Shown: positions 972-43,087 of the stretch, in pieces
Layout of the letters: every line of letters begins with the position of its first letter
How positions within the stretch are numbered: the first letter of the stretch is position 1
Origin: Microbacterium sp. LWO12-1.2
Lineage (GTDB): Bacteria > Actinomycetota > Actinomycetes > Actinomycetales > Microbacteriaceae
Length of the DNA: 64,000 nt
Assembly (NCBI RefSeq): GCF_040675875.1
Contig: NZ_JBEGII010000001.1
Location: 3,224,001 to 3,288,000 of the forward strand
Reading direction: 5' to 3'
Made by a program: the position numbers and the translations under genes
The notes under the pieces: generated by a model
Told to the model about the DNA's origin: nothing
The model's database searches: none
The model's input: only the letters and a program-made list of their open reading frames with translations

Positions 972-1140
972 CGCGGCGGCTCCGCGGACGGGCCACGCTG
1001 CCGGAGAGGATTTCGCGAGAAGGACGCGATCGCGCGATGGGTGGGGGATCGTCATCGCACAACGCGTCCCTGGCCGCCTCGGGAGCGGTCGAGGGTACGG
1101 CTCTTCGGAGCCTGCCCGAGGAGTCCATGGAGCCTCCTCG

Positions 1141-1179
1141 CCGTGAGGGGGCCTCGTCTGGGGCGCGGACCCCTCACGG
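1141..1179. repeat. Intergenic palindrome with GTGAGGGG arms
   Basis: Perfect 10-base arms CCGTGAGGGG (1141-1150) and CCCCTCACGG (1170-1179) enclose 19 bases. It lies between the convergent ends of the response regulator and cca, so it may end transcription from both sides. The GTGAGGGG/CCCCTCAC core recurs in the palindromes near 59957 and 61627. The rest of 972-1202 shows no gene I can support. Confidence 0.55.
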
Positions 1180-1202
1180 GGACCCCCGGTGATCGCGCTG
1201 AC

Positions 1203-2630: not shown

Positions 2631-2678
2631 GGGTTCCAGCGTACCGGGCGGGGTCGCGCCGGTATTCTGAGGGCCATC

Positions 2679-3284
2679 ATGCAGCTGAGCACATTCACGC
2701 CTCCCACCACGCCCGCGGCCCGCGCGGCCCTCGCCCTCGCGGAGCAGTACCACTCCGAGTCGATGCGGAACCATGTGGTGAGGTCGTGGCTGTGGGCCGA
2801 GGCCTTCGCCGCCGCCGAGGGCCGGAACGACATCGATCACGAGCTCCTGTACGTGTCGGCGATGCTGCACGACATCGGCATCGTGCCCGAGTTCGACAAC
2901 GTGAACCTGTCGTACGAGGAGGCGGGCGGGCATGTTGCCGTGGCTCTCGCAACCGGCGCAGGGTGGGACGCGGATCGCAGCCGGCGCGCACTCGACGTCA
3001 TCATCCGGCACAACTGGCCGTCGGTCGACCCCGCCATGGACGTCGAGGGCTACCTGCTCGAGATCGGCACCGCTCTCGACATCTCAGGGGCTCGGGCCGA
3101 TGTCCTTGCCGCGAGCTTCATGCGCGAGGTGCTGGCCGAGTATCCCCGTCTGCAGCTGGCGCGCGAGTTCGGCGACGGCGTCGTCGAACAGGCGGCGCGC
3201 AAGCCGCACACCGCCGCGCACCGACTCGTCACCGGCGGCGTCGTCGGCAAGCTGGAGAACCACCCGCTCGAGCGGCTGACCTGA
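2679..3284 (+). CDS. HD-domain protein, cyanamide-hydratase-like
   Basis: 201-residue soluble protein. Conserved metal ligands of an HD phosphohydrolase fold are visible: His32 in SMRNHVVRSW, the His-Asp pair in AMLHDIG at 64-65, a second histidine in the region of EAGGHVAV, and IIRHNW further on. The small size and the SMRNH/LHDIG spacing resemble the cyanamide hydratase/HDOD-like small HD proteins rather than (p)ppGpp hydrolases. Substrate is unknown. The ATG at 2679 has GAGGG upstream. It diverges from cca, and its stop is 13 bases from the stop of the next, opposite-strand gene. Confidence 0.75.
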   Translation: MQLSTFTPPTTPAARAALALAEQYHSESMRNHVVRSWLWAEAFAAAEGRNDIDHELLYVSAMLHDIGIVPEFDNVNLSYEEAGGHVAVALATGAGWDADRSRRALDVIIRHNWPSVDPAMDVEGYLLEIGTALDISGARADVLAASFMREVLAEYPRLQLAREFGDGVVEQAARKPHTAAHRLVTGGVVGKLENHPLERLT

Positions 3285-3297
3285 CCGGCGGCTCGGT

Positions 3298-3591
3298 TCA
3301 GAACAGCGGATTCTCGCCCCGGGCCTGAGCGATGGCCTGCGTGCGCGCCTGCATCTGACGCACCAGGAGTGCACTCATCAGGAAACCGCCGACCAGCGCG
3401 ACCGCGACGAGCAGCCAGATGCCGAGGTCGGGGTCGATCACCTCGAAGCCGTAGATCGCGACGGCGAGCACCAGCAGCACCGGCCCTTCGACGAGCGCGA
3501 ACCCGAGGAACAGCCGGGTCTGGCGGGCGCGGAAGTGCGTCTCGACGGCCTGGACACGGGCTTCGATCGAGGAGTCTCCGGCGTAGCTCAT
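3298..3591 (-). CDS. Small two-helix membrane protein, unknown function
   Basis: 97 residues. An amphipathic N-terminus (about 1-25) precedes two hydrophobic segments, roughly 28-48 and 56-76, then a basic tail. No catalytic motif was recognised. The protein resembles small conserved membrane proteins of Actinobacteria, but I cannot assign a family. It converges on the HD-domain gene with only 13 bases between stops. Confidence 0.6.
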   Translation of the reverse strand: MSYAGDSSIEARVQAVETHFRARQTRLFLGFALVEGPVLLVLAVAIYGFEVIDPDLGIWLLVAVALVGGFLMSALLVRQMQARTQAIAQARGENPLF

Positions 3592-3768
3592 GCCCCCAGG
3601 CTAGCGACGGGTGATCGGGGCCGCTCGGACAACGCGCGTTCCGCGGATGCCGAGGCATCCGTTCATCTCCCGGTTGCCGGTCGGTCAGCCCGCGGTCATC
3701 ACTCTTCGATGGGCTGAAGGGGCCCCGTGCGGCTGAGCACGGAAACCCCACCCCCACAAAGGACTCAC

Positions 3769-6312: not shown

Positions 6313-6330
6313 TCGTCGGCATCCGTCCAT

Positions 6331-6368
6331 GAGGGCGCCGCCGGGGCTTCGGCCGCGGCGGCGCCCTC
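6331..6368. terminator. Bidirectional terminator hairpin
   Basis: Perfect 12-base arms GAGGGCGCCGCC (6331-6342) and GGCGGCGCCCTC (6357-6368) enclose 14 bases. It lies between the convergent phosphoesterase and cupin genes. The T-run is short (TGTCGT), as is common in high-GC Actinobacteria. Confidence 0.65.
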
Positions 6369-6403
6369 TGTCGTGATCGTGTTCTCCGACGGATGGAGAG
6401 TCG

Positions 6404-6733
6404 TCAGTCGACGACGAACAGCCGAGCACCCGTCTCCGTGCTCGAGCGATGTGCCTCCATATCGGTGCCGACCTGGTAGCTCTCCCCCGCGTGCAGGGTG
6501 AAGGTCCGGCCGTCATCGAGCTCGGTCACGAGGGTGCCTTCCAGCACGAGCAGCACGTGACCACGGGAGCACCAGTGGTCGGCGAGATATCCGGGCGAGT
6601 ACTCGACCGTGCGGATGCGCGTATCCCCGATCTGTTGCGTTCGCCAGGCCGCCTGTCCCGTGACGCCCGGGTGGATGGTGGGCTCGATGTCCGCCCACGT
6701 CGTGGTGGTGAAGGCGTGGCCGAGGAGGTTCAT
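6404..6733 (-). CDS. DHCW-motif cupin protein
   Basis: 109-residue single-domain cupin. The motif DHWCSRGHVLLVLEG near 50-64 contains the DHCW-type signature, and the C-terminal half (LHAGESYQVG) forms the second cupin motif. Such proteins are small beta barrels; no enzyme activity is established from sequence. The start at 6733 (MNLLGHAF) matches the family's usual beginning; an in-frame ATG at 6751 would add six residues, and neither has a strong ribosome site. Confidence 0.75.
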   Translation of the reverse strand: MNLLGHAFTTTTWADIEPTIHPGVTGQAAWRTQQIGDTRIRTVEYSPGYLADHWCSRGHVLLVLEGTLVTELDDGRTFTLHAGESYQVGTDMEAHRSSTETGARLFVVD

Positions 6734-6806
6734 CCGCTCAGTATGGATCATCGGAGAAGCTCGTCTCGGCGATCGCACGCCGTGGATGACGACAGCTCCG
6801 ACCGGT

Positions 6807-6900
6807 CCCCGAGCACAACTTCGGATGTCGCGGACGACACACCGTGGTTTCGGCATCCTGCGCGGCGTGTCGTCCGGCATCTCCGAAGTTGTGCACCGGG
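6807..6900. repeat. Long imperfect palindrome between divergent genes
   Basis: Arms of 34 bases (6807-6840 and 6867-6900) are complementary apart from a short internal block and the last few bases; the conserved parts are GTGTCGTCCG and CCGAAGTTGTGC. The loop is 26 bases. It lies between the divergent cupin and Lrp genes, so it is not a simple shared terminator. It could be a REP/MITE-like element or part of the Lrp control region. Confidence 0.6.
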
Positions 6901-6957
6901 AGTCGACGCCGGACTGGGATAACCTTCCACCGAGTCCGTCCCGCCGAAGGAGAACCC

Positions 6958-7983
6958 GTGCCCGCGAACGATGTGATGGCCGACGAAACCGATCGGATCG
7001 TCGCTGCGGCCCTGCAGGTGAACGGCCGTGCCTCGTGGGGTGAGATCGGCCGCGTGGTCGATCTGCCCGAGCGCACCGTCGCCCGCCGGGGCCAGCGGCT
7101 GCTCGATCGCGGACTGGTACGCGTGTCCACCTACGTGGATCCCGCCCGCGTGCTGCACGCCCGCGCCGTGCTCTTCCGCATCACGACAGAGCCTCACGCC
7201 CTCTGGTACGTGGCCCGCACCCTCGCGCGCCGATCCGACGCCTCGTCGGTCTCCGTGCTGGAGGGCAGCAGCGACATCGCCGGGATGCTGCTGCCGCGCG
7301 ATGACGCCTCGATCCGCGAACTCCTGTTCACCGACTTCCCCGAGCTGGAGGGCATCGCGTCGATCAACGTGACGACGGTGCTGAAGTTCTTCCGCTCGGG
7401 TCATGACTGGCGTGCTGGAGTGCTCACAGACGAACAGGCACGCATGCTCGACGAGTCCTCGGGGTCGGAGGTCGACCCCGCCGATGCGCTCAGCGAAGAC
7501 GAGGAAGCGCTGATCAAGCTGCTGCTGAAGGACGGACGGATGCCGGTGGCCCAGCTCGCGCGTGCTCTCGGCCTGAACGTCACGACCACCCGCCGACGCA
7601 TGGAGTCGCTGAACCGGCGGGGTCTGATGCACCCGCGCACCGAAGTCGTGCCGAGCCTGTTCGGTCTCGGCCTGGAGGCCCTGGTGTGGCTGCGCGTGCC
7701 GATGGATCGGCTCGAGAAGGTGGGCACCGCGCTGGCGGCAGCCCCCGAGGTGAAGTTCATCGCAGCGACCACCGGAACCTCGCAGCTGCTCGCGAACGTG
7801 CTCGTGAAGGATGCCGACGAGTTCTACCGTTTCCTCACCGGTCCCGCTGTGGCGGGGCATGACGGCCTGGAGGTCGTCGAGTCGCTCGTGGTCATCACGC
7901 CGGTGCTGCGCGGATCGCTCATCGTCGACGAGGCGCCCGAGGCGCTGGCGATCGACATGCCGACGGGGGCGATCCGCCTGTAG
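6958..7983 (+). CDS. Duplicated Lrp/AsnC-family transcriptional regulator
   Basis: 341 residues with two tandem Lrp-like modules. The first winged helix is near 8-55 (ASWGEIGRVVDLPERTVARR), followed by a ligand-binding-like region to about 150; the second winged helix is near 187-240 (MPVAQLARALGLNVTTTRRR), followed by a second RAM-like region to the end. The GTG at 6958 was chosen because GAAGGAG lies 5 bases before it. It sits directly upstream of the amine-catabolic operon and 114 bases from it, with palindromes between, so it probably controls that operon. The effector may be the transported amine or its aldehyde or acid product; this is inference. Confidence 0.85.
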   Translation: MPANDVMADETDRIVAAALQVNGRASWGEIGRVVDLPERTVARRGQRLLDRGLVRVSTYVDPARVLHARAVLFRITTEPHALWYVARTLARRSDASSVSVLEGSSDIAGMLLPRDDASIRELLFTDFPELEGIASINVTTVLKFFRSGHDWRAGVLTDEQARMLDESSGSEVDPADALSEDEEALIKLLLKDGRMPVAQLARALGLNVTTTRRRMESLNRRGLMHPRTEVVPSLFGLGLEALVWLRVPMDRLEKVGTALAAAPEVKFIAATTGTSQLLANVLVKDADEFYRFLTGPAVAGHDGLEVVESLVVITPVLRGSLIVDEAPEALAIDMPTGAIRL

Positions 7984-8012
7984 GCCGATTCTGTTACGAG
8001 CGTGTAAAGAAA

Positions 8013-8030
8013 TGGCGAGATCGTTCGCCA
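8013..8030. promoter_or_regulatory. Operator-like inverted repeat TGGCGA-N6-TCGCCA
   Basis: TGGCGA (8013-8018) and TCGCCA (8025-8030) are perfect inverted copies, and a third TGGCGA lies at 8044-8049 inside the promoter spacer. The position just upstream of a -35 element suggests a regulator site, possibly for the adjacent Lrp protein. Confidence 0.5.
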
Positions 8031-8034
8031 AAGC

Positions 8035-8063
8035 TTGACCTCATGGCGAAATAGGGCGACTAT
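8035..8063 (+). promoter_or_regulatory. Probable sigma-70-type promoter of the amine operon
   Basis: TTGACC (8035-8040) and GACTAT (8058-8063) are separated by 17 bases. The expected start is near 8070, about 28 bases before the GTG of the aldehyde dehydrogenase. Confidence 0.5.
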
Positions 8064-8090
8064 CTCTCCAGGGCCTTCACCCCTGGAGAG
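8064..8090. promoter_or_regulatory. Perfect palindrome at the transcription start of the amine operon
   Basis: CTCTCCAGGG (8064-8073) and CCCTGGAGAG (8081-8090) are perfect 10-base arms around CCTTCAC. The right arm contains the ribosome site GGAGAG of the next gene. If transcription starts near 8070 the left arm is only partly transcribed, so a DNA operator is more likely than an RNA hairpin; a start further upstream would allow a hairpin that hides the ribosome site. Confidence 0.5.
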
Positions 8091-8097
8091 GACGACC

Positions 8098-9588
8098 GTG
8101 TTCACGGCAACTGGAGACGACTGGGCGGATCGCGCTGCGACCCTGCGCCTGCGCACCCGCATGTTCATCGACGGCGCGTGGGAGGCCGGGTCGGCGGAGC
8201 CCCTCACCCCGACGAGCCCCCGCGACGGACGGATCCTCCCCGAGATCTCCGCGGCATCGGTCGCCGACGTCGATCGGGCCGTGCGCTCCGCGCGACAGAC
8301 CTTCGACTCCGGCGTGTGGTCGCGCATCGCGCCCCGCGAGCGCGGCCAGCTGCTCATCGCCTTCGCACAGAAGATCCACGACAACGCCGAAGAGCTCGCC
8401 CTCACCATCTCGCTCGAGATGGGCAAGCCCGTACGCGAGGCGCTGCAGACCGAGCTCCGCGCGGTCGTGAACTGCTTCCGCTGGTACGGCGAGGCCGCCG
8501 ACAAGGTCCTCGACGAGTTGCCCGTCACCGCACCGAACAGCCTGGCGCTCGTCACCCGCGAGCCGGCCGGTGTCGTCGCGGCCGTCGTGCCCTGGAACTT
8601 CCCCCTGACGATGACCGCCTGGAAGCTCGCTCCCGCGCTCGCGGTCGGCAACAGCGTCGTGCTCAAGCCCGCCGAGCACACCACGTTCTCGGCACTCCGC
8701 CTCGCGGAGCTCGCCCACGAAGCCGGCATCCCCGCCGGTGTGCTCAACGTCACCCCCGGCGCCGGACACATCGCCGGCCGTGCGCTCGGCGAGCACCTCG
8801 ACGTCGACGTCGTGACCTTCACGGGTTCGCCCGAGGTCGGCCGACGCTTCCTCGGATACTCCGCGGCATCCAACGGCAAGCGCGTCTGGCCCGAGCTCGG
8901 CGGCAAGACCGCGAGCCTGGTGCTGCCGGACGCCGACCTGGAGAATGCCGTGCGCGCGACCGCCGACGGCTGCTTCTACAACCAGGGGCAGATGTGCACC
9001 GCATCCTCCCGCCTGCTCGTACCGCGTGCGCAGCATGAGCGCGCGCTGGAGATCGCCGCCGACGTGGCGAGGAACAGCCTTCCCGCCGACCCGTTCGATG
9101 TCACCACGTCGATGGGCGCGATCGTGAGCGAGAAGCAGCTCGCCGGGATCGCCGGATTCGTGGAGCGGGCCCAGGCCGAAGGCGGCGTGCTCGCCGCCGG
9201 CAGCGCGGACCGATTCTCCGCCGTCGACGGCGGCAGCTACTTCGCCCCTGTCGTGCTCGGCGTCACCCCTGCGCACGAGGTCGCCCAGCGCGAGGTCTTC
9301 GGCCCCGTGCTCTCCGTCATCGCCTACGACGACGTGGAAGACGCCCTCGCGATCGCCAACGGCACCGAGTTCGGGCTGGCCGCGGCGCTGTGGAGCAACG
9401 ACCTGAACGCCGTGCACACCCTGTCGCGTCGACTGCGCGCCGGAATCGTGTGGGTCAACTGCTTCGAAGAAGGCGACATGACGATCCCCTTCGGCGGCGT
9501 CAAGGGCTCCGGCTTCGGTCGCGACAAGAGCCTGCACGCCATGGAGAAGTTCACCGATCTGAAGACCACCTGGATCGCGCTCTCATGA
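8098..9588 (+). CDS. Aldehyde dehydrogenase, PuuC-like
   Basis: 496-residue NAD(P)-dependent aldehyde dehydrogenase of the size usual for the family. Catalytic residues are present: Asn167 in PWNFPL, Glu266 in ELGGK and Cys300 in GQMC; VTFTGS near 239-244 belongs to the cofactor-binding fold. The closest recalled subgroup is gamma-glutamyl-gamma-aminobutyraldehyde/betaine-aldehyde type. The GTG at 8098 follows GGAGAGGA. It is the first gene of a run with a PuuD-like hydrolase, DUF3830 and a PotABCD-like transporter, which points to oxidation of an aldehyde derived from putrescine or a related amine. Exact substrate is not certain. Confidence 0.9.
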   Translation: MFTATGDDWADRAATLRLRTRMFIDGAWEAGSAEPLTPTSPRDGRILPEISAASVADVDRAVRSARQTFDSGVWSRIAPRERGQLLIAFAQKIHDNAEELALTISLEMGKPVREALQTELRAVVNCFRWYGEAADKVLDELPVTAPNSLALVTREPAGVVAAVVPWNFPLTMTAWKLAPALAVGNSVVLKPAEHTTFSALRLAELAHEAGIPAGVLNVTPGAGHIAGRALGEHLDVDVVTFTGSPEVGRRFLGYSAASNGKRVWPELGGKTASLVLPDADLENAVRATADGCFYNQGQMCTASSRLLVPRAQHERALEIAADVARNSLPADPFDVTTSMGAIVSEKQLAGIAGFVERAQAEGGVLAAGSADRFSAVDGGSYFAPVVLGVTPAHEVAQREVFGPVLSVIAYDDVEDALAIANGTEFGLAAALWSNDLNAVHTLSRRLRAGIVWVNCFEEGDMTIPFGGVKGSGFGRDKSLHAMEKFTDLKTTWIALS

Positions 9589-10343
9589 TCCGTCCGTTCG
9601 TCGGCATCACCACGTGGCGCCGCTTCATCGACACCGACCTGGGCACGGGGCGTCCTGCCCACAGCCTGGGCACCGAGTACTCCGCGCCGATCGAGGCCGC
9701 GGGAGCAGCCGTCGTGCTGCTGCCTCCGACCGCAGGGGTCGACCGGGTGCTCGACCGCCTGGACGGACTCGTGCTCTCCGGCGGCGAAGACGTGCACCCC
9801 GCCCGCTACGGTGCCGAGCCGCAGGCGGAGAAGAACTACGACCCGGCCCGCGACGAGTTCGAGATCGCGCTCGCGCTCGGCGCCCGCGAGCGCGGCCTTC
9901 CCGTCCTGGCGATCTGCCGCGGGCTGCAGGTGAGCAACATCGCATTCGGCGGTTCGCTCATCGTCGACATCCCCTCGACCGACGACCACCACCCCGTGCG
10001 CGGCGCCGACCAGCAGCTCTCCGCCCGGCATTCCGTCTCGTTCGCGACGGACAGCCGACTCGCGGCCCTGTACGGCGTGCGCGAGCGCGTCGTGAACACC
10101 ATCCACCACCAGTCCGTCGACGTCCCCGCCCCCGGTCTGCGCCCCGTCGCATGGGCCCCGGACGGGATCGTCGAAGCCGTCGAAGCCGACGGCGACTGGC
10201 CCTTCTGGGCGGTGCAGTGGCACCCCGAGAAGATGATCGACCCCGTCGAGGCCGCAGAGGAGCTCCCGCTGTTCGCGGCGTTCGTCTCGGCCGCCCGTGA
10301 ACGAGCAGCGGAACACGCCGCTGTGGAGAAAGGAACACGATGA
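9585..10343 (+). CDS. Gamma-glutamyl-GABA hydrolase family protein (PuuD-like)
   Basis: 252-residue class I glutamine-amidotransferase-like hydrolase (peptidase C26). The nucleophile is Cys111 in AICRGLQ, and the dyad partners are His213 and Glu215 in QWHPE. In the Puu route, such enzymes release GABA from gamma-glutamyl-GABA in the cytoplasm. Its ATG overlaps the stop of the aldehyde dehydrogenase (ATGA), and its own stop overlaps the next start, so the genes are translationally coupled. PuuA- and PuuB-type genes are not in the window, so the full pathway is not shown. Confidence 0.88.
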   Translation: MIRPFVGITTWRRFIDTDLGTGRPAHSLGTEYSAPIEAAGAAVVLLPPTAGVDRVLDRLDGLVLSGGEDVHPARYGAEPQAEKNYDPARDEFEIALALGARERGLPVLAICRGLQVSNIAFGGSLIVDIPSTDDHHPVRGADQQLSARHSVSFATDSRLAALYGVRERVVNTIHHQSVDVPAPGLRPVAWAPDGIVEAVEADGDWPFWAVQWHPEKMIDPVEAAEELPLFAAFVSAARERAAEHAAVEKGTR

Positions 10344-10810
10344 CCAAGCAGGTCTTCCTCGAGTACGAGAACGGCGTCCGCGCCGTCGCCACCCTGTTCG
10401 AGGACCTCGCCCCTCGCACGTGCGAGGCCATGTGGGGTGCGCTGGAGAAGCCGGTCACCATGCAGGCGATGCACGCGATGTACGCCGGACCCGAGGTCAT
10501 GGTCGGCCTCCCCGAAGAGGCACAGAACTTCGACCCCGAGAAGGTGCCGTTCGAGAACCAGCAGGTCGTGCCCGCACCGGGAGATCTGCAGTGGTACTGG
10601 CAGCGTCCGATGCAGATGGGCGGCCTGCCGTTCGAGTGGTACGAGATCGGAGTCTTCTACGATCGTGGTGCACGTACTCTCGGCCCGCTCGGATGGACAC
10701 CCGTCAACATCTGGGGCGGCATCACCGAAGGATTGGCGGAGTTCGCCAAGGAGAGCGCGGCGATCCGCATCGACGGAGCGAAGCAGCTCACCATCGGACG
10801 CCTGGTCTAG
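10340..10810 (+). CDS. DUF3830 family protein
   Basis: 156 residues, starting MTKQVFLEYENGVRAVATLFEDLAPRTC and ending with a compact beta-rich region. I recognise the DUF3830 pattern, proteins predicted to have a cyclophilin-like barrel and with no established reaction. No signal peptide or membrane segment. The ATGA overlap with the hydrolase and the substrate-binding protein 40 bases downstream place it inside an amine uptake and breakdown operon, which is consistent with a role in substrate processing or binding. That role is inference. Confidence 0.75.
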   Translation: MTKQVFLEYENGVRAVATLFEDLAPRTCEAMWGALEKPVTMQAMHAMYAGPEVMVGLPEEAQNFDPEKVPFENQQVVPAPGDLQWYWQRPMQMGGLPFEWYEIGVFYDRGARTLGPLGWTPVNIWGGITEGLAEFAKESAAIRIDGAKQLTIGRLV

Positions 10811-10850
10811 GCGTCCACTCAGTGCTGGACCCATCCCGAAGGAGCAGTGC

Positions 10851-11930
10851 ATGAATACCCGAAGAATTCTCACGACCGGAGCGCTCGTCGCCGCCGGTGC
10901 CCTCGTCCTCGCCAGCTGTGCAGCCGGTGACGACACCGCAGCAAGCGGCGACAAGGAGTTCGCCGGCGAGACCATCGTCGTCACCTCGTTCGGTGGCGAC
11001 TGGGAGAAGGCCTTCATCGAGGCCGTCGTCGATCCCTTCGAGGAGGAGACCGGTGCCAAGGTCGAGCTGATCACGCTGTACAGCGCCGACGCTCTCGCGC
11101 AGGTCACCGCCCAGAAGGCGAGCCCGCAGATCGACGTCGTGCACTTCTCCGGCGGCCAGGAGTTCACCGCGGCCCAGGACGGGCTCATCGCCCCGATCGC
11201 GGCCGACGAGCTCTCGGAGTCCGGTGACCTCATCGACCTCGCGACCGCCGGTCTCGAGCGCGGCGAAGGACCCGTCATCCAGCTCGCCCCGATCGGGCTG
11301 GTCTACAACACCGAGGCCGATGCCCCCGCGCCGACCTCGTGGCTGGACCTGTTCGACGAGGCCTACGCAGGACACGTCGCGCTCACGGACTTCTCGAACA
11401 CGTACGGCGTGCTCTCGATGCTCCGCGTCGCCGACGCGCTCGGCGGCGGCATCGAAGACCCGTCCCAGGCGATCGCCGATCTCGGTGCCCTGGCATCGTC
11501 CGGTGACGCGATCGTCGTCCCCACCTCGCCAGACCTGCAGACCGCGTTCGCCCAGCGCGCGACGTGGATCGCCCCCTACGCGATGGACTACGCCGGCACG
11601 CTGCAGGATGCAGGGCTCCCGGTCGAGTTCATCGTCCCGGAGGAAGGTGCCACGGCATCCCTCATCACCGCGAACGTGGTCGAGGGCCGGGACAACCCGG
11701 AGCTCGCCAAGCTCTTCATCGACTTCGAGCTGCGCCCCGAAGCGCAGACCGTCTTCGCGGAGAACATGCGGTACTCGCCGGTGAACACCAAGGTCGAGCT
11801 CTCGGGCGAGGCGGCGGATGCGGTGCTGACCGGTGACGAGCTGGACAACGTGGTGGTCTACGCGCCCGGCGACATCGCCGCCGACCGGCAGTCGTGGACC
11901 GACGAGTGGAATGCGCTGATCACCAAATGA
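10851..11930 (+). CDS. ABC transporter substrate-binding lipoprotein, PotD-like
   Basis: 359 residues. The signal peptide ends in the lipobox LASC with the lipidated Cys23. The mature part begins with TIVVTSFGGDWEKAF, typical of spermidine/putrescine-type (family 1) solute-binding proteins. It should sit on the outer face of the membrane and deliver substrate to the two permeases encoded next. GAAGGAG precedes the ATG by 7 bases. The ATG of the following permease overlaps its stop. Confidence 0.88.
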   Translation: MNTRRILTTGALVAAGALVLASCAAGDDTAASGDKEFAGETIVVTSFGGDWEKAFIEAVVDPFEEETGAKVELITLYSADALAQVTAQKASPQIDVVHFSGGQEFTAAQDGLIAPIAADELSESGDLIDLATAGLERGEGPVIQLAPIGLVYNTEADAPAPTSWLDLFDEAYAGHVALTDFSNTYGVLSMLRVADALGGGIEDPSQAIADLGALASSGDAIVVPTSPDLQTAFAQRATWIAPYAMDYAGTLQDAGLPVEFIVPEEGATASLITANVVEGRDNPELAKLFIDFELRPEAQTVFAENMRYSPVNTKVELSGEAADAVLTGDELDNVVVYAPGDIAADRQSWTDEWNALITK

Positions 11931-33783: not shown

Positions 33784-34749
33784 TCAGCTCTTGCCGTAAC
33801 CCTCTTCGCCGAGCTCTTCGAGAATCCGGTTCAGATCCTGGATGGAAGCGAAATCGATTGTGACCTGGCCTTTACGCGCGCCCAGCGCGATCTTGACTCG
33901 GGTGTTCAGGCGATCGCCGAGCTTTCCGGCCACTTCGTCGAGGTAGGCGCGTCGCGCGCCCGGCGTCGGCTTGGGGGTCGAGCCGGCCACCGCCGGCTGG
34001 TGCTTGGCGACTTCTTCCGTCGCACGGACGGAGAGATCTTCGTTCACGACCTTGTCTGCGAGGCGCTGCATGGCCTCGGCGTTGTCGAGGCTCAGGATCG
34101 CCCGTGCGTGTCCGGCGGTCAGCACACCGGCGGCCACGCGCTGCTGCACGGGCACGGGGAGCTTGAGAAGACGGATCGTGTTGCTGATCTGCGGACGAGA
34201 GCGTCCGATCCGCGTCGCGAGCTCCTCCTGCGTGATGCCGAAGTCCTCCAGAAGCTGCTGGTAGGCCGATGCCTCTTCCAGAGGGTTCAGTTCGGAACGG
34301 TGCAGGTTCTCGAGCAGCGCATCGCGCAGCAGATCCTCGTCGGCGGTCTCCCGCACGATCGCGGGGATGGTCTCCAGGCCGGCCTCACGTGCCGCGCGGG
34401 TACGCCGCTCCCCCATGATGAGCTCGTAGTCGCCGTCGGAGTTCTTGCGCACCACCACGGGCTGCAGCACACCGAACTCGCGCACACTGTGCACCAGCTC
34501 GGCGAGGTCCTCGACGTTGAAGTGCGTGCGCGGCTGCCGCGGGTTCGGCACGATCTTCTGCGGGTCGACCTGCACGAGATGGATGCCGGGAACCGCCTCC
34601 AACTCCGCTTCGACCACCGGCGCCGTGCTCTCCGGCGCCGCACGCAGGCTGGCCCCCGGGAAGAACACGTCCACGGGACGCTCGGACTGATCGGCGGTGG
34701 GGATGAGAGCGCCGATACCGCGGCCCAATCCAGTGCGCTTCGCCATCAT
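33784..34749 (-). CDS. parB: Chromosome partitioning protein ParB
   Basis: 321 residues. The CTP-binding motif GERRTRAA is at 113-120, and the helix-turn-helix for parS follows (ITQEELATRIGRSRPQISNTIRLL, near 189-212). A C-terminal dimerisation domain completes the protein. ParB loads at parS and slides as a clamp. The first ATG overlaps the parA stop (ATGATGGCG). Nine parS cores lie nearby. Confidence 0.96.
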   Translation of the reverse strand: MMAKRTGLGRGIGALIPTADQSERPVDVFFPGASLRAAPESTAPVVEAELEAVPGIHLVQVDPQKIVPNPRQPRTHFNVEDLAELVHSVREFGVLQPVVVRKNSDGDYELIMGERRTRAAREAGLETIPAIVRETADEDLLRDALLENLHRSELNPLEEASAYQQLLEDFGITQEELATRIGRSRPQISNTIRLLKLPVPVQQRVAAGVLTAGHARAILSLDNAEAMQRLADKVVNEDLSVRATEEVAKHQPAVAGSTPKPTPGARRAYLDEVAGKLGDRLNTRVKIALGARKGQVTIDFASIQDLNRILEELGEEGYGKS

Positions 34750-35672
34750 TTCTCCTTGCTCTGCGACGCTGTGCGCGACGCGATCTCGACAGCGGCCTCG
34801 CGATACGCGATCGCGCCGGCGGATTGCCCATCGTAGGCGATCACGGTCTGACCGAAACTCGGGGCTTCCGACACCCGCACCGAGCGGGGAATGACGGTTT
34901 CCAGCACCTGAGTCGGGAAGTGGGTACGAACCTCATCGGCGACCTGCTGCGCCAGGCGGGTACGCCCGTCGAACATTGTCAGCAGGATCGTAGAGAGGTG
35001 AAGCGCCGGATTGAGGTGCTTCTGGATCATCTGGATGCTGCCGAGCAGCTGGCTGAGCCCCTCCAGGGCGTAGTACTCGCACTGGATGGGGATGAATACC
35101 TCAGACGCCGCAGTGAACGCGTTGATCGTCAGCAGGCCCAACGAGGGTGGGCAGTCGATGATCACGAAGTCCATGGGACTGTTCGTGAGGTACTCCTCCA
35201 GAGCCCGGCGCAGGCGGTGCTCACGGGCGACCTGGGCGACCAGCTCGATCTCGGCGCCCGCGAGGTGGATCGTGCTCGGTGCGCAGAAGAGGTTCGGGTT
35301 CTCCGGGCTCTGCTGAATGATGTCGGCGAGCGGGAACTCCTCGATCAGCACGTCATAGACACTCGGGATGTCCGCACTGTGTGGAACCCCCAGCGCAGTG
35401 GAGGCGTTGCCCTGAGGGTCGAGGTCGATCACCAGGACCTTGGCACCGAGTCCGGCAAGTGCCGAAGCGACATTCACGGCTGTGGTCGTCTTGCCGACGC
35501 CACCCTTCTGATTGGAAACCGTCAGCACACGTGTATCCCCCGAGAACTCCACCTTTGCGGATTCAAGGGCACGCCGCCGAGCGGAGAGGTCTGCAAGTTC
35601 CCGCGCGAGCGGTGTATCCGTACCGAACGAATCGTTCGAGGATGCCTTTTCGGACTGTTTCACGTGAAACAT
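34746..35672 (-). CDS. parA: Chromosome partitioning ATPase ParA
   Basis: 308 residues. The deviant Walker A motif KGGVGKTTT is at 56-64, with DLDPQGNAS and DCPPSLG following. The first codons (MFHVKQ) are themselves a parS site at 35656-35671, so ParB binding could affect parA expression. About 50 residues precede the ATPase domain, a normal length for chromosomal ParA. The start at 35672 is the only one that gives an uninterrupted N-terminus, but an internal GTG within the parS cannot be excluded. Confidence 0.96.
   Translation of the reverse strand: MFHVKQSEKASSNDSFGTDTPLARELADLSARRRALESAKVEFSGDTRVLTVSNQKGGVGKTTTAVNVASALAGLGAKVLVIDLDPQGNASTALGVPHSADIPSVYDVLIEEFPLADIIQQSPENPNLFCAPSTIHLAGAEIELVAQVAREHRLRRALEEYLTNSPMDFVIIDCPPSLGLLTINAFTAASEVFIPIQCEYYALEGLSQLLGSIQMIQKHLNPALHLSTILLTMFDGRTRLAQQVADEVRTHFPTQVLETVIPRSVRVSEAPSFGQTVIAYDGQSAGAIAYREAAVEIASRTASQSKEK
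35656..35671. promoter_or_regulatory. parS site overlapping the parA start
   Basis: TGTTTCACGTGAAACA, a perfect 16-base parS palindrome. It spells codons 1-5 of parA on the minus strand. Confidence 0.93.
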
Positions 35673-36410
35673 CCACTCCTTTCGGGGCCGCGTTCCACTC
35701 TAATAGCTGGGGAGGACGTTGATTGTCGGATGATCAGGACTTCTGGCGGGTTCTTCGGCCGGCTTCCGCGGTCCACGGCTGCGCGCACACCGATGACGAT
35801 CCGCTTTGTGGCCCTGTGAGACCTCGCGGGGTGGCGGGCGCGTCCCCTCTCCTGCTATTCGTCCACCCCTCCCTCGCGGCGCTGGTCCTGCCTTGATCGC
35901 CAGTTCGGCGGCACGCCCTCGCCCGCAACCACCATGCGCGAGCTACGCAGCAGATCCGAGGTCCTGGCTGCTGAGGGTGCTGCACTCACCCACCGAGACG
36001 GACTCGCGCGGAGGAACCGCGGCTGGGTGGCGTCAGACCCGGCGCGGGGCGCCGGCTCAGTGTGCGGCTGGGTCACCGACACTGCCGTGTGCGGATCGCC
36101 TGCGGCAAGAACACGTGCTGGTCCTCCCGCAATGCGGTGCCGCGCTGGCGGGTAAGGGCCGGGCGACCGGACACCGGCCCTCCCCCGCTCCACCGGGTCG
36201 CTCCGGCGTAAGGCCATCCCTACGGTGTCCCGTGTGCCAGCACGGCCAGCGGGTTCCCCACTGGAGTAGTTCGGGATCGTCGATACCGCGTGAGTTCTGG
36301 CTCGGTCGATAGGGCGCGTAGCTGCGACGCGAGCTGGCTAGGCACGCGCTCAGGTAGCGACTCCGCGGCTGCACAAACGGACGTGCGCCCACACACGGCG
36401 GATATAGGCG

Positions 36411-36426
36411 TGTTTCACGTGAAACG
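36411..36426. promoter_or_regulatory. parS site
   Basis: TGTTTCACGTGAAACG: exact 14-base core, last base differs from the palindrome. Confidence 0.9.
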
Positions 36427-36519
36427 CTCCTACGTTTGCTCTGGTCCAGCGGCCGAGAATGGCCAACTCGCGGGTGGAACCCTCGCTCCTGACGACGGTC
36501 GCCCTCGGGCACAGGTCGA

Positions 36520-36535
36520 TGTTTCACGTGAAACA
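36520..36535. promoter_or_regulatory. parS site
   Basis: Perfect 16-base parS palindrome. Confidence 0.93.
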
Positions 36536-36635
36536 TGCCCATGTGTGCCTGGATTCGAGCATCCCTCCGACCAGCGTCGGCGCCCACGTCGACGATGAGG
36601 CCGCCTCACCCCGTTCACCATTTCACGGAGGCCGA

Positions 36636-36651
36636 TGTTTCACGTGAAACA
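36636..36651. promoter_or_regulatory. parS site
   Basis: Perfect 16-base parS palindrome; a TTTCACGGAGG half-site-like sequence lies just before it at 36621. Confidence 0.93.
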
Positions 36652-36894
36652 ACCGACCGCCGTCAATGGGTGCACGTCTTGCGCAGCGACGTCGTCAGCA
36701 CCACAGCGTCATGGGACTCGGGCCACGGGATCAGAGTGACGCCCTACTCCTGGCGACGGACATAGCCCCTGCCTGCCCGAACCCACCATCGGCCAGATCG
36801 GGATCAGCGCACACGGTGCGCGCTCGTCCACCGGGCTACCAAGTCGACCGGCTCGCATGCAGAAGTGTCCTCACGCGCCACACGGCAGGCACCC

Positions 36895-36948
36895 CACGAC
36901 CACGACCACGACCACGACCACGAACACGAACACGAACACGAACACGAC
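36895..36948. repeat. Hexanucleotide tandem repeat (CACGAC/CACGAA)
   Basis: Nine contiguous six-base units: four CACGAC, four CACGAA, one CACGAC. It lies inside the parS-rich spacer and belongs to no gene. Confidence 0.9.
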
Positions 36949-37025
36949 CCATCTTCAGTGTCGAGCACCGCACAGTAGTGCCGAGGACAGTGGGCGCACC
37001 CGCGTCGCGCGCGACTCACCCCTGA

Positions 37026-37041
37026 TGTTTCACGTGAAACG
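37026..37041. promoter_or_regulatory. parS site
   Basis: Exact 14-base parS core with G at the last position. Confidence 0.9.
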
Positions 37042-37160
37042 CGATCTCCCCCGAGCTACGGATCCATCGCTGAACAGAGGACCCAGCCCTGTGGATGGAT
37101 CTGTGGAGCAGACGCCGGCTCGTTCCCGAAACATCGGCCGCCAGCCGTCAGATGTCGCCG

Positions 37161-37176
37161 TGTTTCGTGTGAACCA
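37161..37176. promoter_or_regulatory. Degenerate parS-like site
   Basis: TGTTTCGTGTGAACCA keeps the outer bases but differs from the parS palindrome at three positions. Perhaps a decayed copy. Confidence 0.4.
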
Positions 37177-37222
37177 CAGGGCTAGCGGGCCCTCGTCTCG
37201 TTCCGGGCCACAGCGGCGAGCC

Positions 37223-37231
37223 TGTGGATAA
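37223..37231 (-). promoter_or_regulatory. DnaA box inside the parS array
   Basis: TGTGGATAA, the exact reverse complement of the consensus TTATCCACA, about 5.5 kb from oriC. Confidence 0.6.
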
Positions 37232-37292
37232 CCTACTCAAGCAACTCATAGCCAGCGCACCAGATGCACAGCGCAACCGCAACAGATGCCAC

Positions 37293-37308
37293 CGTTTCAC
37301 GTGAAACA
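37293..37308. promoter_or_regulatory. parS site
   Basis: Exact 14-base parS core with C at the first position. Confidence 0.9.
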
Positions 37309-37519
37309 TCCCTCGCACCGAGCCGCTGCACCCCCGTGCGCAAGAGCAGCCTCACCTGAGACTATTGCTCACACCCAGCGCACAATCGGCACCCCAGGGC
37401 GCGCCCAACATCCCCCACCTGACGCAGATCACGCCCCGCGAAACCACCGCATCAGTCGCCACTCACCATGATCTCCGCACAGGACTCGATGGCGATCCAA
37501 CCACTCGATCAACGGCTGA

Positions 37520-37535
37520 TGTTTCACGTGAAACG
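37520..37535. promoter_or_regulatory. parS site
   Basis: Exact 14-base parS core with G at the last position. Confidence 0.9.
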
Positions 37536-37764
37536 CTCTCCTCCCCCGACGAAGCGGCTTCTTGCGGCGACACCCCGCTACCAACTAGAAGCCAACAAGC
37601 ACCGAAGTCTCGGCCGAAACGAAACGCTGTGACTGAAGGGGATGCTCCCGGAGTGAGGATCGGGAGGGGACCCGCTTGCAGGGAGGGTGCGCGTTCCGCG
37701 AACGAAGGGAGTATCGCCTTCAGTCGCCCACAAGCAACCCAGGCATCCTCAGACGCGATCAGTA

Positions 37765-37780
37765 TGTTTCACGTGAAACA
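37765..37780. promoter_or_regulatory. parS site just beyond rsmG
   Basis: Perfect 16-base parS palindrome, 13 bases past the rsmG stop. Confidence 0.93.
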
Positions 37781-37793
37781 TCCCGCCGACAAA

Positions 37794-38417
37794 CTAGCGA
37801 ACAACCGCCCGCAGAACACGAGTCGTCTCGCCCAGCACTCCTTCGCCGAGAACCTCGACGCGTACGTTCGACAGTCGGAACTTCTTGATGGCCTTCTGTC
37901 CAGCCTCGATCTCGTTGTCGACGTTCATGCCCTTGAGCAACGCCAGCTCTCCGCCGTCTTTGACCAGCGGGGCAGTGAGAGGAATGAGGGTGCGAAGCGC
38001 GCTGACGGCTCTCGCCGTGACGACGTCGAAACCCTCAGGGCGACGCACGTCCTCGGCGCGGGCACGGTGAACCTCTACGTTCTCCAGCCCCAGCTCCGTC
38101 ACCTGCTCATTGAGCCAGTTGACGCGACGCTCCATGGGCTCGATCAGGGTCCACTCCACATCCGGTCGAGCAATGGCAAGCACGAGCCCGGGAAGGCCTG
38201 CGCCGGAACCGATGTCCGCCACAGATCCATGGAAGAGCGGGGCTGCGATCACGCTGTTCAGGATGTGTCGTGTCCACAGGCGAGGAAGCTCCAGCGGCCC
38301 GATCAGGCCACGTTCCTCCCCTTCGCGCGCGAGGGAATCCGTGAAGGCGCGCGCAATATCGATCCGATCACCGAAGAGCTCCGCAGCGATGGCGGGCTCC
38401 TGCTCGAGGCCGGTCAT
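37794..38417 (-). CDS. rsmG: 16S rRNA (guanine527-N7)-methyltransferase
   Basis: 207 residues. The SAM-binding motif DIGSGAGLPG is at 68-77, preceded by RLWTRHILNS, both hallmarks of RsmG/GidB. It methylates G527 of 16S rRNA; its loss is known to give low-level streptomycin resistance in other bacteria. The ATG at 38417 follows GGGAG. A parS site lies 18 bases upstream of the start, between it and jag. Confidence 0.95.
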   Translation of the reverse strand: MTGLEQEPAIAAELFGDRIDIARAFTDSLAREGEERGLIGPLELPRLWTRHILNSVIAAPLFHGSVADIGSGAGLPGLVLAIARPDVEWTLIEPMERRVNWLNEQVTELGLENVEVHRARAEDVRRPEGFDVVTARAVSALRTLIPLTAPLVKDGGELALLKGMNVDNEIEAGQKAIKKFRLSNVRVEVLGEGVLGETTRVLRAVVR

Positions 38418-38435
38418 GGCCGGACTCCCGAGCGA

Positions 38436-38451
38436 TGTTTCACGTGAAACA
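38436..38451. promoter_or_regulatory. parS site between jag and rsmG
   Basis: Perfect 16-base parS palindrome that directly abuts the jag stop codon. Confidence 0.93.
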
Positions 38452-38943
38452 TCAACGACGACGGAGGACCGTGTGCCGGTCGGCGCCCTCGCCGTAGGAC
38501 TCTGACACCAGACCGCGGTCCGAAGCGATGTCATGAACCAGCTTGCGCTCGTAGCTCGACATGGCAGGCAGGGATGCCTGCGACGAGCCCTCGTCGAGCT
38601 TTGCGGCAGCAGCATCGACCAGCGTCTCGAGCTGTCGACGACGGATGTCGCGCGATCCGCCGATGTCGAGGATCAGTCGCGAGAATCCACCGGTCTTGTT
38701 CTGCACGGCGAGACGCGTCAGCTCCTGGAGAGCCTGCACGGTATCCGGCGCGGAAAGCAGGGCGAGTCCGTCATCCTCCGCCTCCACTGACACGTACGCG
38801 CGGCCCTGACGAACGTCGAGGTTCAGATCACCATCGATGTCGGCGATATCGAGGAGCTCCTCGAGGTAGTCCGCAGCGACATCGCCTTCATTCTCGAGCT
38901 GAGCCACCGTGGGCTCGACGCTCTCCGTCACGCTCTCGGTCAT
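38452..38943 (-). CDS. jag: RNA-binding protein Jag/KhpB
   Basis: 163 residues. An acidic N-terminus, a KH-like domain (about 25-95) and a C-terminal R3H domain with SSYERKLVHDI near 129-139. In other bacteria KhpB binds RNA and affects envelope growth. The long N-terminal Jag domain of Firmicutes is absent, as is usual in Actinobacteria. The start overlaps the yidC stop (ATGA). Confidence 0.92.
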   Translation of the reverse strand: MTESVTESVEPTVAQLENEGDVAADYLEELLDIADIDGDLNLDVRQGRAYVSVEAEDDGLALLSAPDTVQALQELTRLAVQNKTGGFSRLILDIGGSRDIRRRQLETLVDAAAAKLDEGSSQASLPAMSSYERKLVHDIASDRGLVSESYGEGADRHTVLRRR

Positions 38944-41021: not shown

Positions 41022-41030
41022 TTATCCACA
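41022..41030 (+). promoter_or_regulatory. DnaA box upstream of dnaA
   Basis: Exact consensus TTATCCACA, 150 bases before the dnaA ATG. Confidence 0.8.
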
Positions 41031-41081
41031 ACCCACGCTCTCTCCACGGGTACAACACGCTCGCGTGTTTCCAAGGGCAGG

Positions 41082-41110
41082 TTGCCGTTCACAGCCGGGA
41101 TGACTACCGT
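41082..41110 (+). promoter_or_regulatory. Possible dnaA promoter
   Basis: TTGCCG (41082-41087) and TACCGT (41105-41110) with a 17-base spacer; a DnaA box lies just downstream. Weak match. Confidence 0.3.
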
Positions 41111-41121
41111 GGCAGAGCAAG

Positions 41122-41130
41122 TTATCCACA
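41122..41130 (+). promoter_or_regulatory. DnaA box in the dnaA leader
   Basis: Exact consensus TTATCCACA, 51 bases before the dnaA ATG; placed to repress dnaA. Confidence 0.8.
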
Positions 41131-41180
41131 GGGGACCGCGGCATCGGGGAACCCTCATCGAAACCCCCGCGCGGAGCGTC

Positions 41181-42593
41181 ATGTCCACACCAGCCCAGCC
41201 CGACGTTCCGATCTGGACCACGGTGCAGGAGCTGCTGGAGTCCGACGATCGCGTCACTCCTCAGTTGCAGGGATTCCTCAGCCTCGCCGTCCCCGCCGGC
41301 GTCATGGCCGCGACGCTGTACCTCGAAGTGCCCAACGACCTCACCGCGGCGCAGATCAACAAGAGACTCCGTCTTCCGATCATGGAGGCACTGACGCACC
41401 TCGGCGACGAAGTCACCGCCTTCCGCGTCGTCGTGAACCATGAGCTCGCCGAGCAGCCGACCGCGCCGATCGCCGTGTCCGAGTTCGGACGACAGGACGG
41501 CGACTTCGCGCGGCAGGACCATGTGCGGGTCGAGTCCCCCATGGAACAGCCGACACCGATGCGGCACGAGTCCCGGCTCAACCCGAAGTACACCTTCGAC
41601 AACTTCGTGATCGGTCAGTCCAACCGATTCGCCCACGCCGCAGCGGTCGCGGTCGCCGAGGCACCGGCCAAGGCGTACAACCCCCTCTTCATCTATGGAG
41701 ACTCCGGACTCGGCAAGACGCACCTCCTTCACGCGATCGGCGACTACGCACAGTCGCTCTATCCGGGCGTCAAGGTGCGATACGTCTCAAGCGAGGAGTT
41801 CACGAACGACTTCATCAACTCGATCGCGAACAACCGGGGCGCGGCTTTCCAGGCGCGCTACCGCGAGGTCGACATCCTCCTGATCGATGACATCCAGTTC
41901 CTGCAGGGACGAGCGGAGACGCAGGAAGCGTTCTTCCATACCTTCAACACGCTGCACGATCACAACAAGCAGGTGGTCATCACCAGCGATGTCGCACCGA
42001 AGCACCTCACCGGCTTCGAGGATCGGATGCGCAGCCGGTTCGAGTGGGGTCTGATCACCGACGTGCAGGCCCCCGACCTCGAGACGCGTATCGCGATCCT
42101 CCGCAAGAAGGCCCAGAGCGAGGCGCTCCACATCCCCGACGAGGTGCTGGAGTACATCGCAACCGTGGTCTCGTCGAACATCCGAGAGCTCGAGGGTGCC
42201 TTGATCCGAGTCTCCGCGTTCGCGAGCCTCAACCGGTCGGCGCTCGACATCTCTCTCGCTCAGACCGTGCTGCGCGACATCATCGATACGGCCGAGGACA
42301 ACATCATCTCGCCGACCGACATCATCACGGCGACAGCGCAGTACTTCAAGCTCACGGTCGACGACCTCTACGGATCGAGCAGATCACAGCAGATCGCGAC
42401 CTCGCGCCAGATCGCGATGTATCTGTGCCGTGAGCGCACGAGTCTCTCTCTTCCGAAGATCGGACAGCTCTTCGGAAACCGCGACCACACGACCGTGATG
42501 TACGCCTATAAGAAGATCAGCGAGCTCATGAAGGAACGGCGCTCGATCTACAACCAGGTCACCGAGATCACCACGCAACTCGGTCGCCGCTGA
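41181..42593 (+). CDS. dnaA: Chromosomal replication initiator DnaA
   Basis: 470 residues. Domain I (1-90), a short linker, the AAA+ domain with FDNFVIG, Walker A GDSGLGKT at 173-180 and Walker B LLIDDIQF at 233-240, and the C-terminal DNA-binding domain with the signature GNRDHTTVMYAYKKI. Opens oriC when bound to ATP. The ATG at 41181 is preceded by GGAG and gives the usual N-terminus; an upstream in-frame GTG at 41082 has no ribosome site. Confidence 0.98.
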   Translation: MSTPAQPDVPIWTTVQELLESDDRVTPQLQGFLSLAVPAGVMAATLYLEVPNDLTAAQINKRLRLPIMEALTHLGDEVTAFRVVVNHELAEQPTAPIAVSEFGRQDGDFARQDHVRVESPMEQPTPMRHESRLNPKYTFDNFVIGQSNRFAHAAAVAVAEAPAKAYNPLFIYGDSGLGKTHLLHAIGDYAQSLYPGVKVRYVSSEEFTNDFINSIANNRGAAFQARYREVDILLIDDIQFLQGRAETQEAFFHTFNTLHDHNKQVVITSDVAPKHLTGFEDRMRSRFEWGLITDVQAPDLETRIAILRKKAQSEALHIPDEVLEYIATVVSSNIRELEGALIRVSAFASLNRSALDISLAQTVLRDIIDTAEDNIISPTDIITATAQYFKLTVDDLYGSSRSQQIATSRQIAMYLCRERTSLSLPKIGQLFGNRDHTTVMYAYKKISELMKERRSIYNQVTEITTQLGRR

Positions 42594-43087
42594 CCACGTA
42601 ACGCCTGTGTGAAGGGGGACACCGCATCCGTTCTGGTGCCGTGTCCCCCTTTTCTGTTGATCTGACACGCCGTCCGCGCTACGGATAGATGCCTCTATGC
42701 ACATGTGGATAACTTGTGGATGACTGTTGAACTGCGACGCATGAATGTGGGTCGATCAGTCAAACCTGTGGATAACTCCGGGGAAGCTCAGAACGACTCC
42801 CTGGCCCCACGCCCCCGGTTTCCTCAGGGATTCCACAAGTGACAACTGTGTAGTTCCTTACTCCCGACAGCTATCCACCGAGTTATCCACAGAATCCACA
42901 GCTGTTAACACTGTTAAGGAGTTAAACCAGTTAAGGCGCGATCCGATCACCAGAGAGTGTGAAAACCGGGATCCGAATGACAAATCCCTCGGGCGTAGGG
43001 ATACGTGTGACTCTGGGGCTAGCATGGGAAGCCCTGCACAGGGAAAGACGACGACACGCGTCGCAGAACGACGACAAGGGAGCACCA
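42594..43087. other. Replication origin oriC
   Basis: The 494-base dnaA-dnaN gap. DnaA boxes: exact at 42704-42712 and 42767-42775 (minus strand) and 42883-42891 (plus); one-mismatch at 42715-42723; two-mismatch at 42871-42879 and 42892-42900. Next to the last boxes, GTTAA recurs four times at 8-9 base spacing (42904-42934), a relatively AT-rich block and the best duplex-unwinding candidate. Its position between dnaA and dnaN is that of most Actinobacteria. Confidence 0.88.
42612..42655 (+). terminator. dnaA terminator
   Basis: AAGGGGGACAC (42612-42622) pairs with GTGTCCCCCTT (42641-42651), followed by TTTCTG. Intrinsic terminator 18 bases past the dnaA stop. Confidence 0.8.

Follow-up and report, generated by a model that had tools for sequence, protein, structure and literature searches.

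The present analysis concerns a stretch of 64,000 nucleotides from Microbacterium sp. LWO12-1.2 (positions 3,224,001 to 3,288,000 of contig NZ_JBEGII010000001.1, hereafter the window), and in particular an array of parS sites in and around the rsmG-parA spacer. Reading along the minus strand, one finds yidC (probable), jag (R3H), rsmG, the spacer, parA and parB, in that order; dnaA and dnaN are found on the plus strand. The main features are as follows (no strand is assigned where none is given).

33784..34749, minus strand: parB (Pfam ParB_N, HTH_ParB and ParB_C)
34746..35672, minus strand: parA (Pfam AAA_31; deviant Walker ATPase, KGGVGKTT present in the sequence)
35657..35670: parS core 1, exact; overlaps the parA start, inside MFHVKQ
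35673..37793: gene-free rsmG-parA spacer of 2121 bp, from the rsmG stop to the parA start
36412..36425: parS core 2, exact
36521..36534: parS core 3, exact
36637..36650: parS core 4, exact
37027..37040: parS core 5, exact
37162..37175: decayed parS-like site with three mismatches, from the motif scan
37294..37307: parS core 6, exact
37521..37534: parS core 7, exact
37766..37779: parS core 8, exact
37794..38417, minus strand: rsmG (GidB), from Pfam; start set by homologues
38437..38450: parS core 9, exact; in the 34-bp jag-rsmG gap
41022..42891: oriC region with five TTATCCACA boxes, extending from just ahead of dnaA into the dnaA-dnaN gap

A motif scan recovered nine exact GTTTCACGTGAAAC cores and one copy with three mismatches between positions 35657 and 38450, in agreement with an earlier note on this DNA, which had counted nine exact cores and one decayed copy within 2.8 kb. 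Of the nine, seven are located in the spacer; the two outer ones overlap the parA start and occupy the jag-rsmG gap, respectively. Neighbouring cores are 109-755 bp apart. Allowing up to three mismatches, GTTTCACGTGAAAC gave 14 matches in the window, compared to a mean of 1.36 and a maximum of 6 in 100 shuffles, and about 0.05 sites with two or three mismatches would be expected by chance in 2.1 kb (scaled from a simulation of genus spacers). The whole genome (4.1 Mb, 4 contigs) holds zero further exact cores and a single match with two mismatches, 2.1 Mb away. Several attributes of a chromosomal ParABS centromere are thus present, namely palindromic exact cores above chance, parA and parB beside the sites (their domains being canonical in Pfam, which also recovers that of RsmG), and a nearby oriC, with DnaA boxes around dnaA and dnaN 2.6-7.2 kb away. 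Judging from the sequence, the locus is very probably a chromosomal Microbacterium centromere, i.e., a complete parA-parB-parS system 4-7 kb from oriC, onto which ParB is predicted to load.

The coding potential of the spacer was assessed with a codon model trained on 32 open reading frames (ORFs) of the window, each with 200 codons or more from stop to stop and a GC content >0.82 at third codon positions, and applied to segments of 120 nt. At the 99% level obtained from base-shuffled spacers, seven known genes pass in 96% of their segments, whereas the spacer does so in 6%, with a best score of 0.17 against a known-gene median of 0.48. No ORF of at least 60 aa internal to the spacer has a positive mean codon score, and Pfam had no match at E<=0.01 for six spacer ORFs, one of which is truncated on the rsmG side. 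In a protein search with two spacer ORFs, one had no homologue and the other matched one singleton over 27% of the query. The description of seven cores in a 2.1-kb spacer without a credible gene is consequently upheld by the codon model, Pfam and the protein search alike.

In order to place the locus among its relatives, as the earlier note had proposed, we drew 99 Microbacterium genomes, in which the core was found in 96, rsmG in 95, parA in 96 and both genes in 95. After six had been dropped, 89 with rsmG and parA on one contig and strand were used for distances. In these, rsmG and parA are a median of 2048 bp apart (10-90%, 228-4828; range, 82-11391), the exact parS count per whole genome runs from 3 to 14, and spacer length is correlated with parS number (Spearman 0.60). 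Compared to the other 88, the 2121 bp of the window exceed 47 spacers and fall short of 41, while its nine parS belong to the upper tail (75 genomes with fewer, 3 with as many, 10 with more). A family sample of 118 other Microbacteriaceae genomes was also collected, with both genes in 116 and 114 usable (83 genera); here the median distance is 99 bp, 21 genomes exceed 1000 bp and the median is 3 parS. The genus differs from the other genera in both distance and parS number (Mann-Whitney p about 4e-20 and 1e-20, respectively, kinship being ignored). That rsmG and parA usually lie close together with few sites is therefore correct for the rest of the family, and the spacer can be called enlarged on that scale; within the genus the term does not hold, since the length of the spacer is close to the median. 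Enlargement of the spacer characterises Microbacterium and is no event peculiar to this genome, and some other genera have long spacers as well. Giant spacers of 7.6-11.4 kb were observed at L111 (genome G043), L112 (G049), L113 (G052) and L114 (G065), with 63-90% of their segments below the coding threshold; G052 carries 14 parS.

The 60 longest of the 89 spacers (at least 1345 bp; the window and 59 others; 203 kb) were compared in sequence. By blastn (97 matches at E<=1e-3) they have little in common with the spacer of the window beyond some 49 bp upstream of parA, portions close to rsmG in the closest relatives, and short matches. A k-mer scan of the 60 spacers found, besides words at the parA end, no word common to many of them. 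Repetitive extragenic palindrome (REP)-like words, e.g., CTCGATAC, CTCGCTCA and CTCAATGACC, pile up in some Microbacterium spacers. The parS sites behave differently: the spacers contain 368 exact cores and 69, 16, 11 and 41 sites with one, two, three and four mismatches, as against simulated expectations of 0, 0, 0.5, 4.3 and 36.5 for zero to four mismatches. Among the one-mismatch sites, 29 of 69 are the GTTCCAC/GTGGAAC variant, a half-site reportedly bound by ParBs (PMC7022226).

Selection on the cores was examined in an unmasked collinear and a parS-masked version, with the repeat-rich pair L142/L147 excluded. The parS-masked alignment covers 32 sequence-disjoint pairs; of its 8.5 gap-free sites, 7 are unchanged in the partner, where 1.3% per site would be expected, although 26.9% of other positions differ. 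In the unmasked alignment of 20 pairs, 10 of 12 sites are intact with a difference of 23.2% outside them. Among sister pairs picked from a tree, 6 of 15 have equal core numbers, though only 7-46% of the shorter spacer can be aligned. On the tree itself (71 rows; quick method), the long-spacer label has to change 14 times, with 10 or more of the changes on starred, i.e., well-supported, branches. It appears that spacer sequence and length turn over fast, while the parS cores are probably held by selection, as judged from 8.5-12 sites in relatives.

The cores are also regularly spaced. The 308 gaps between exact cores in the 60 spacers have a median of 363 bp and a minimum of 58 bp, with 10.7% below 150 bp, and their coefficient of variation in the 56 spacers with at least four cores is 0.51, compared to 0.76 for uniform placement (p 3e-9). 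Tandem duplication was considered as the cause of this evenness and rejected, as the evenness persists (0.48 vs. 0.76) when the 11 spacers with duplicated flanks are removed. Of two hard-core nulls, that of 100 bp was rejected and that of 150 bp was not, which suggests interference between near neighbours below roughly 100-150 bp as the simplest reading. No helical phasing was detected among 167 gaps (mean vector 0.05 vs. about 0.08 by chance). To our knowledge, even parS spacing has not been reported.

Growth of the array by duplication or insertion had also been proposed in the earlier note. For the window, not one of 15 pairs of core flanks (six of the seven spacer cores being usable) passes the 75% similarity threshold, the maximum being 0.5, and the flanks are no more alike than chance, so that this part of the claim finds no backing at the locus itself. 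In the 60 spacers, flank similarity of at least 75% was found in 4.3% of 1034 within-spacer pairs, all in 11 spacers, as opposed to none of 5000 between-spacer pairs. Likely extra genes amount to 22 ORFs in at most 13 of the 60 spacers; in two of the 13, L112 and L113, the ORF resembles an upstream extension of parA. Pfam was run on 10 of the 22 ORFs, of which four had no domain and six carried a methyltransferase, GNAT, RibD_C, Clp_N with Polyketide_cyc2, and, twice, GIY-YIG. No gene common to the spacers as a class was found among the 60 longest. Both routes, duplication and insertion, exist in relatives, while growth by duplication is unproven for the window. The view of the segment as a dedicated gene-free centromere is borne out by its recurrence in the genus, the selection on its cores, the lack of a gene common to the spacers and the proximity of oriC.

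Further features of the spacer are a stretch at its parA end, a tandem repeat and a hairpin, here called element X.

35673..35721, minus strand: pre-parA stretch, probable promoter and ribosome-binding site; carries the words ATTAGAGTGG and AAAGGAGTGG
36894..36949: hexamer tandem repeat CCACGA (CCACGA/ACACGA), 9.3 copies, inside the parS spacer
37623..37732, plus strand: element X, covarying hairpin of 110 nt, 61 bp past the rsmG stop and antisense to rsmG

The words ATTAGAGTGG and AAAGGAGTGG occur exactly in 16 and 12 of the 60 genus spacers, respectively. A promoter and terminator scan of positions 34600-38500 returned no promoter and one terminator-like site, fewer than the shuffle mean. 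The hexamer repeat has many blastn matches elsewhere and was discounted as low complexity. A perfect DnaA box (TTATCCACA, 37223-37231) in the parS spacer was considered as a link to initiation, but in the 60 genus spacers, as in the 72 of the named set, the window is its sole carrier, and it is hence idiosyncratic.

Element X emerged from a blastn search of the spacer against 366 genus genomes, in which the stretch 37639-37736 recurs. Iterated nhmmer gave 57 matches in the collected loci, some genomes being counted twice; copies were seen in L032, L033, L037, L040, L049, L053, L056, L062 and other loci. Distinct full copies scoring 44 bits or more number 37, of which 36 were aligned. The copy at the parA end of L053 was excluded as its 5' arm does not match, and the alignment therefore leans towards pairing. 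The fold is a hairpin of 27 pairs, of which 17 are changed on both sides, and none of 500 shuffles reaches the observed value on any of five covariation measures. Two-sided changes occupy 132 cells, compared to 38.5 in the shuffles and 13-30 in controls with a slid partner. Relatedness alone can lift sequences above shuffles in the absence of structure, an effect to which the slid controls are less subject. The core (GAGCATCGGGAGGGG, CCCGC-GAA-GCGGG, CCCGCTCTGC) is nearly invariant, whereas the outer stem is variable yet paired. Template-switch repair of quasi-palindromes may also keep pairing, and covariation alone is thus no proof of an RNA.

Rfam at E<=1 gave no match over element X in the window or in the L040 and L049 copies (five sub-threshold matches overall), and searches of phages and plasmids with one copy gave none; these and Microbacteriaceae constitute the search scope. 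At E<=1e-3 element X was detected in 40 of the 99 genus genomes, with 1-8 copies each, many at recurring origin-proximal slots, and at 63 bits or more in 24 of 99; among the 118 other Microbacteriaceae, two have a match, of 32 bits only. These copy numbers and slots are what bears on a reading of element X as a mobile repeat of the REP or MITE type, which would call for numerous dispersed, near-identical copies flanked by target-site duplications. A search of the open-access literature for its core string found nothing, nor did a word search. Within the family, element X is apparently an undescribed hairpin element with convincing matches only in Microbacterium, so far as these sequence searches indicate.

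Matches scoring 63 bits or more number 66; the contig of parA carries 44 of these, 37 of which lie within 50 kb of parA. In 12 genomes known to have a parA contig of at least 1 Mb (G034 being taken as circular), 18 of 26 matches lie within 50 kb and 8 beyond, though the model was built on origin-proximal copies and distant variants may be under-counted. One of the eight is the second copy in the genome of the window (G000:C1:1797438-1797545, L193), which is origin-distant and non-coding between predicted genes. The slots are located between genes of about 380 and 400 aa (dnaN and recF by position), after rsmG, before parA, beside a gene of about 700 aa (gyrB by size) and near a 107-aa gene (trxA by size), and 35 of 36 copies checked with the coding model are intergenic. 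Copies in a given slot mostly share one orientation relative to parA: it is the same in 7 of 7 copies 24-40 kb before parA and opposite in 14 of 16 copies 7-17 kb before it, while copies just before parA have the same orientation and those after rsmG the opposite one. Inverted copies towards both spacer ends occur in 12 of the 71 loci with both genes in a named set of 80, nearly all Microbacterium; their concerted evolution is mixed, since the own partner is closest in six of the 12, one is a tie and five are closer to copies elsewhere. The idea that element X brackets the whole array was not sustained, as the paired copies of the 12 loci together enclose 36 of their 50 spacer cores, i.e., most, and in one locus all of them. 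The window has a single copy, and core 37766 is left outside it, towards rsmG. Among the 60 longest-spacer loci, the window included, element X is present in four (five matches). An origin region made of two fast-evolving types of non-coding site, an even parS array and a slot-bound element X that marks or bounds the ParB/SMC domain, is unlikely. On this reading element X would be, e.g., a hairpin or cruciform that is bound by a protein and blocks sliding ParB clamps, or a structured RNA made from the origin domain.

A parS core loads ParB-CTP clamps, which is followed by spreading and by recruitment of SMC and ParA. In the centromere proposed here, each of the nine palindromic cores would load sliding clamps of this kind, and gene-free DNA with several sites would allow parallel loading onto a little-transcribed track, the lack of transcription presumably being of advantage. 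The ParB complex would then be moved by ParA and recruit SMC. Selection would keep the exact cores set apart, together with a short promoter-like stretch at the parA end, and the rest would be largely free to change.

A number of observations weigh against this proposal. Nine of the 89 genus genomes have a spacer of just 82-166 bp, so a long spacer is not essential. The selection test covers few sites (8.5-12), because most spacers cannot be aligned, and the 1.5 non-intact sites of the masked test are almost wholly different, such that parS columns differ by 14.7% (17.5/119) against 26.9% outside. When one-mismatch sites are counted, the smallest gap decreases to 45 bp, although the evenness remains (0.52 vs. 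0.79). ParB binding or segregation data for this organism were not found in the open-access literature. In Corynebacterium glutamicum one of ten parS is reported to suffice (PMC7083940), and the benefit of nine is therefore unproven.

As to other explanations, frequent changes of spacer length (the at least 10 label changes forced by well-supported branches), likely extra genes in at most 13 of 60 spacers, six of ten scanned with ordinary Pfam domains, and the hairpin and REP-like repeats would all suit a dump of decaying inserted DNA, in which parS survive by accident and array size drifts neutrally. The cores, however, stay exact while the remainder differs by about 23-27%, their spacing is non-random, and the sister pairs retain equal core numbers in 6 of 15 cases with 7-46% of the shorter spacer alignable, which renders this account very unlikely; the spacer may drift, the sites seemingly do not.

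It is also highly improbable that the cores serve mainly as ParB operators autoregulating parA/parB and rsmG, with the spacer as a long regulatory region. One core does overlap the parA start, another stands just before rsmG, and the promoter-like stretch common to many spacers abuts parA; yet seven cores are in the spacer, the nearest to parA about 740 bp upstream of its start and hence beyond a usual promoter, core number rises with spacer length (Spearman 0.60), and the only k-mers common to many spacers are the parA-end words, with REP-like words in some. An undetected gene or RNA as the main content, parS being secondary, could draw on the covarying hairpin at 37623-37732, which could be an RNA. 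Element X nevertheless accounts for 110 of 2121 bp, any copy of it is found in 40 of 99 genus genomes (E<=1e-3) and 4 of 60 longest-spacer loci, and coding signal and Pfam matches are absent, so that we regard this possibility as remote.

The proposed centromere can be compared with known systems; no study of a Microbacterium or Microbacteriaceae parS centromere was found by title in the open-access literature. C. glutamicum likewise has an actinobacterial ParABS with clustered parS, there ten 16-bp sites, 9 of 10 intergenic, and its ParB is reported to bind all ten in vivo but not degenerate sites with at least three mismatches (PMC7083940). ParB binding and SMC-dependent folding have been demonstrated there. 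The C. glutamicum sites spread over 35 kb and lie 73 kb from oriC, in contrast to nine in 2.8 kb, seven of them in one gene-free spacer, 4-7 kb from oriC (PMC7083940). The array resembles that of Caulobacter crescentus in being an origin-near cluster, with the five strongest sites there within 5 kb and about 8 kb from the origin, but Caulobacter sites are said to be in essential or high-cost genes, while in the window most sites occupy a dedicated non-coding spacer, a segment of widely varying length across the genus (PMC5815017). In Pseudomonas aeruginosa parS1-4 also form the cluster nearest to oriC, and one site is reportedly necessary and sufficient for segregation; that cluster has four sites, unlike the nine in Microbacterium (PMC4368675; PMC7022226). 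Robustness is reportedly gained from multiple parS, which in most bacteria are said to be clustered within 5-40 kb (PMC8357415).

The expansion of centromere regions over time has been posed as an interesting question (PMC5815017). With spacers from 82 bp to 11.4 kb and 3 to 14 exact parS, Microbacterium represents a natural experiment on centromere growth, allowing close relatives to be compared for number of sites, spacing and expansion. The suggested interference limit of about 100-150 bp provides a number for testing clamp-loading models, and element X is a concrete new object for origin biology.

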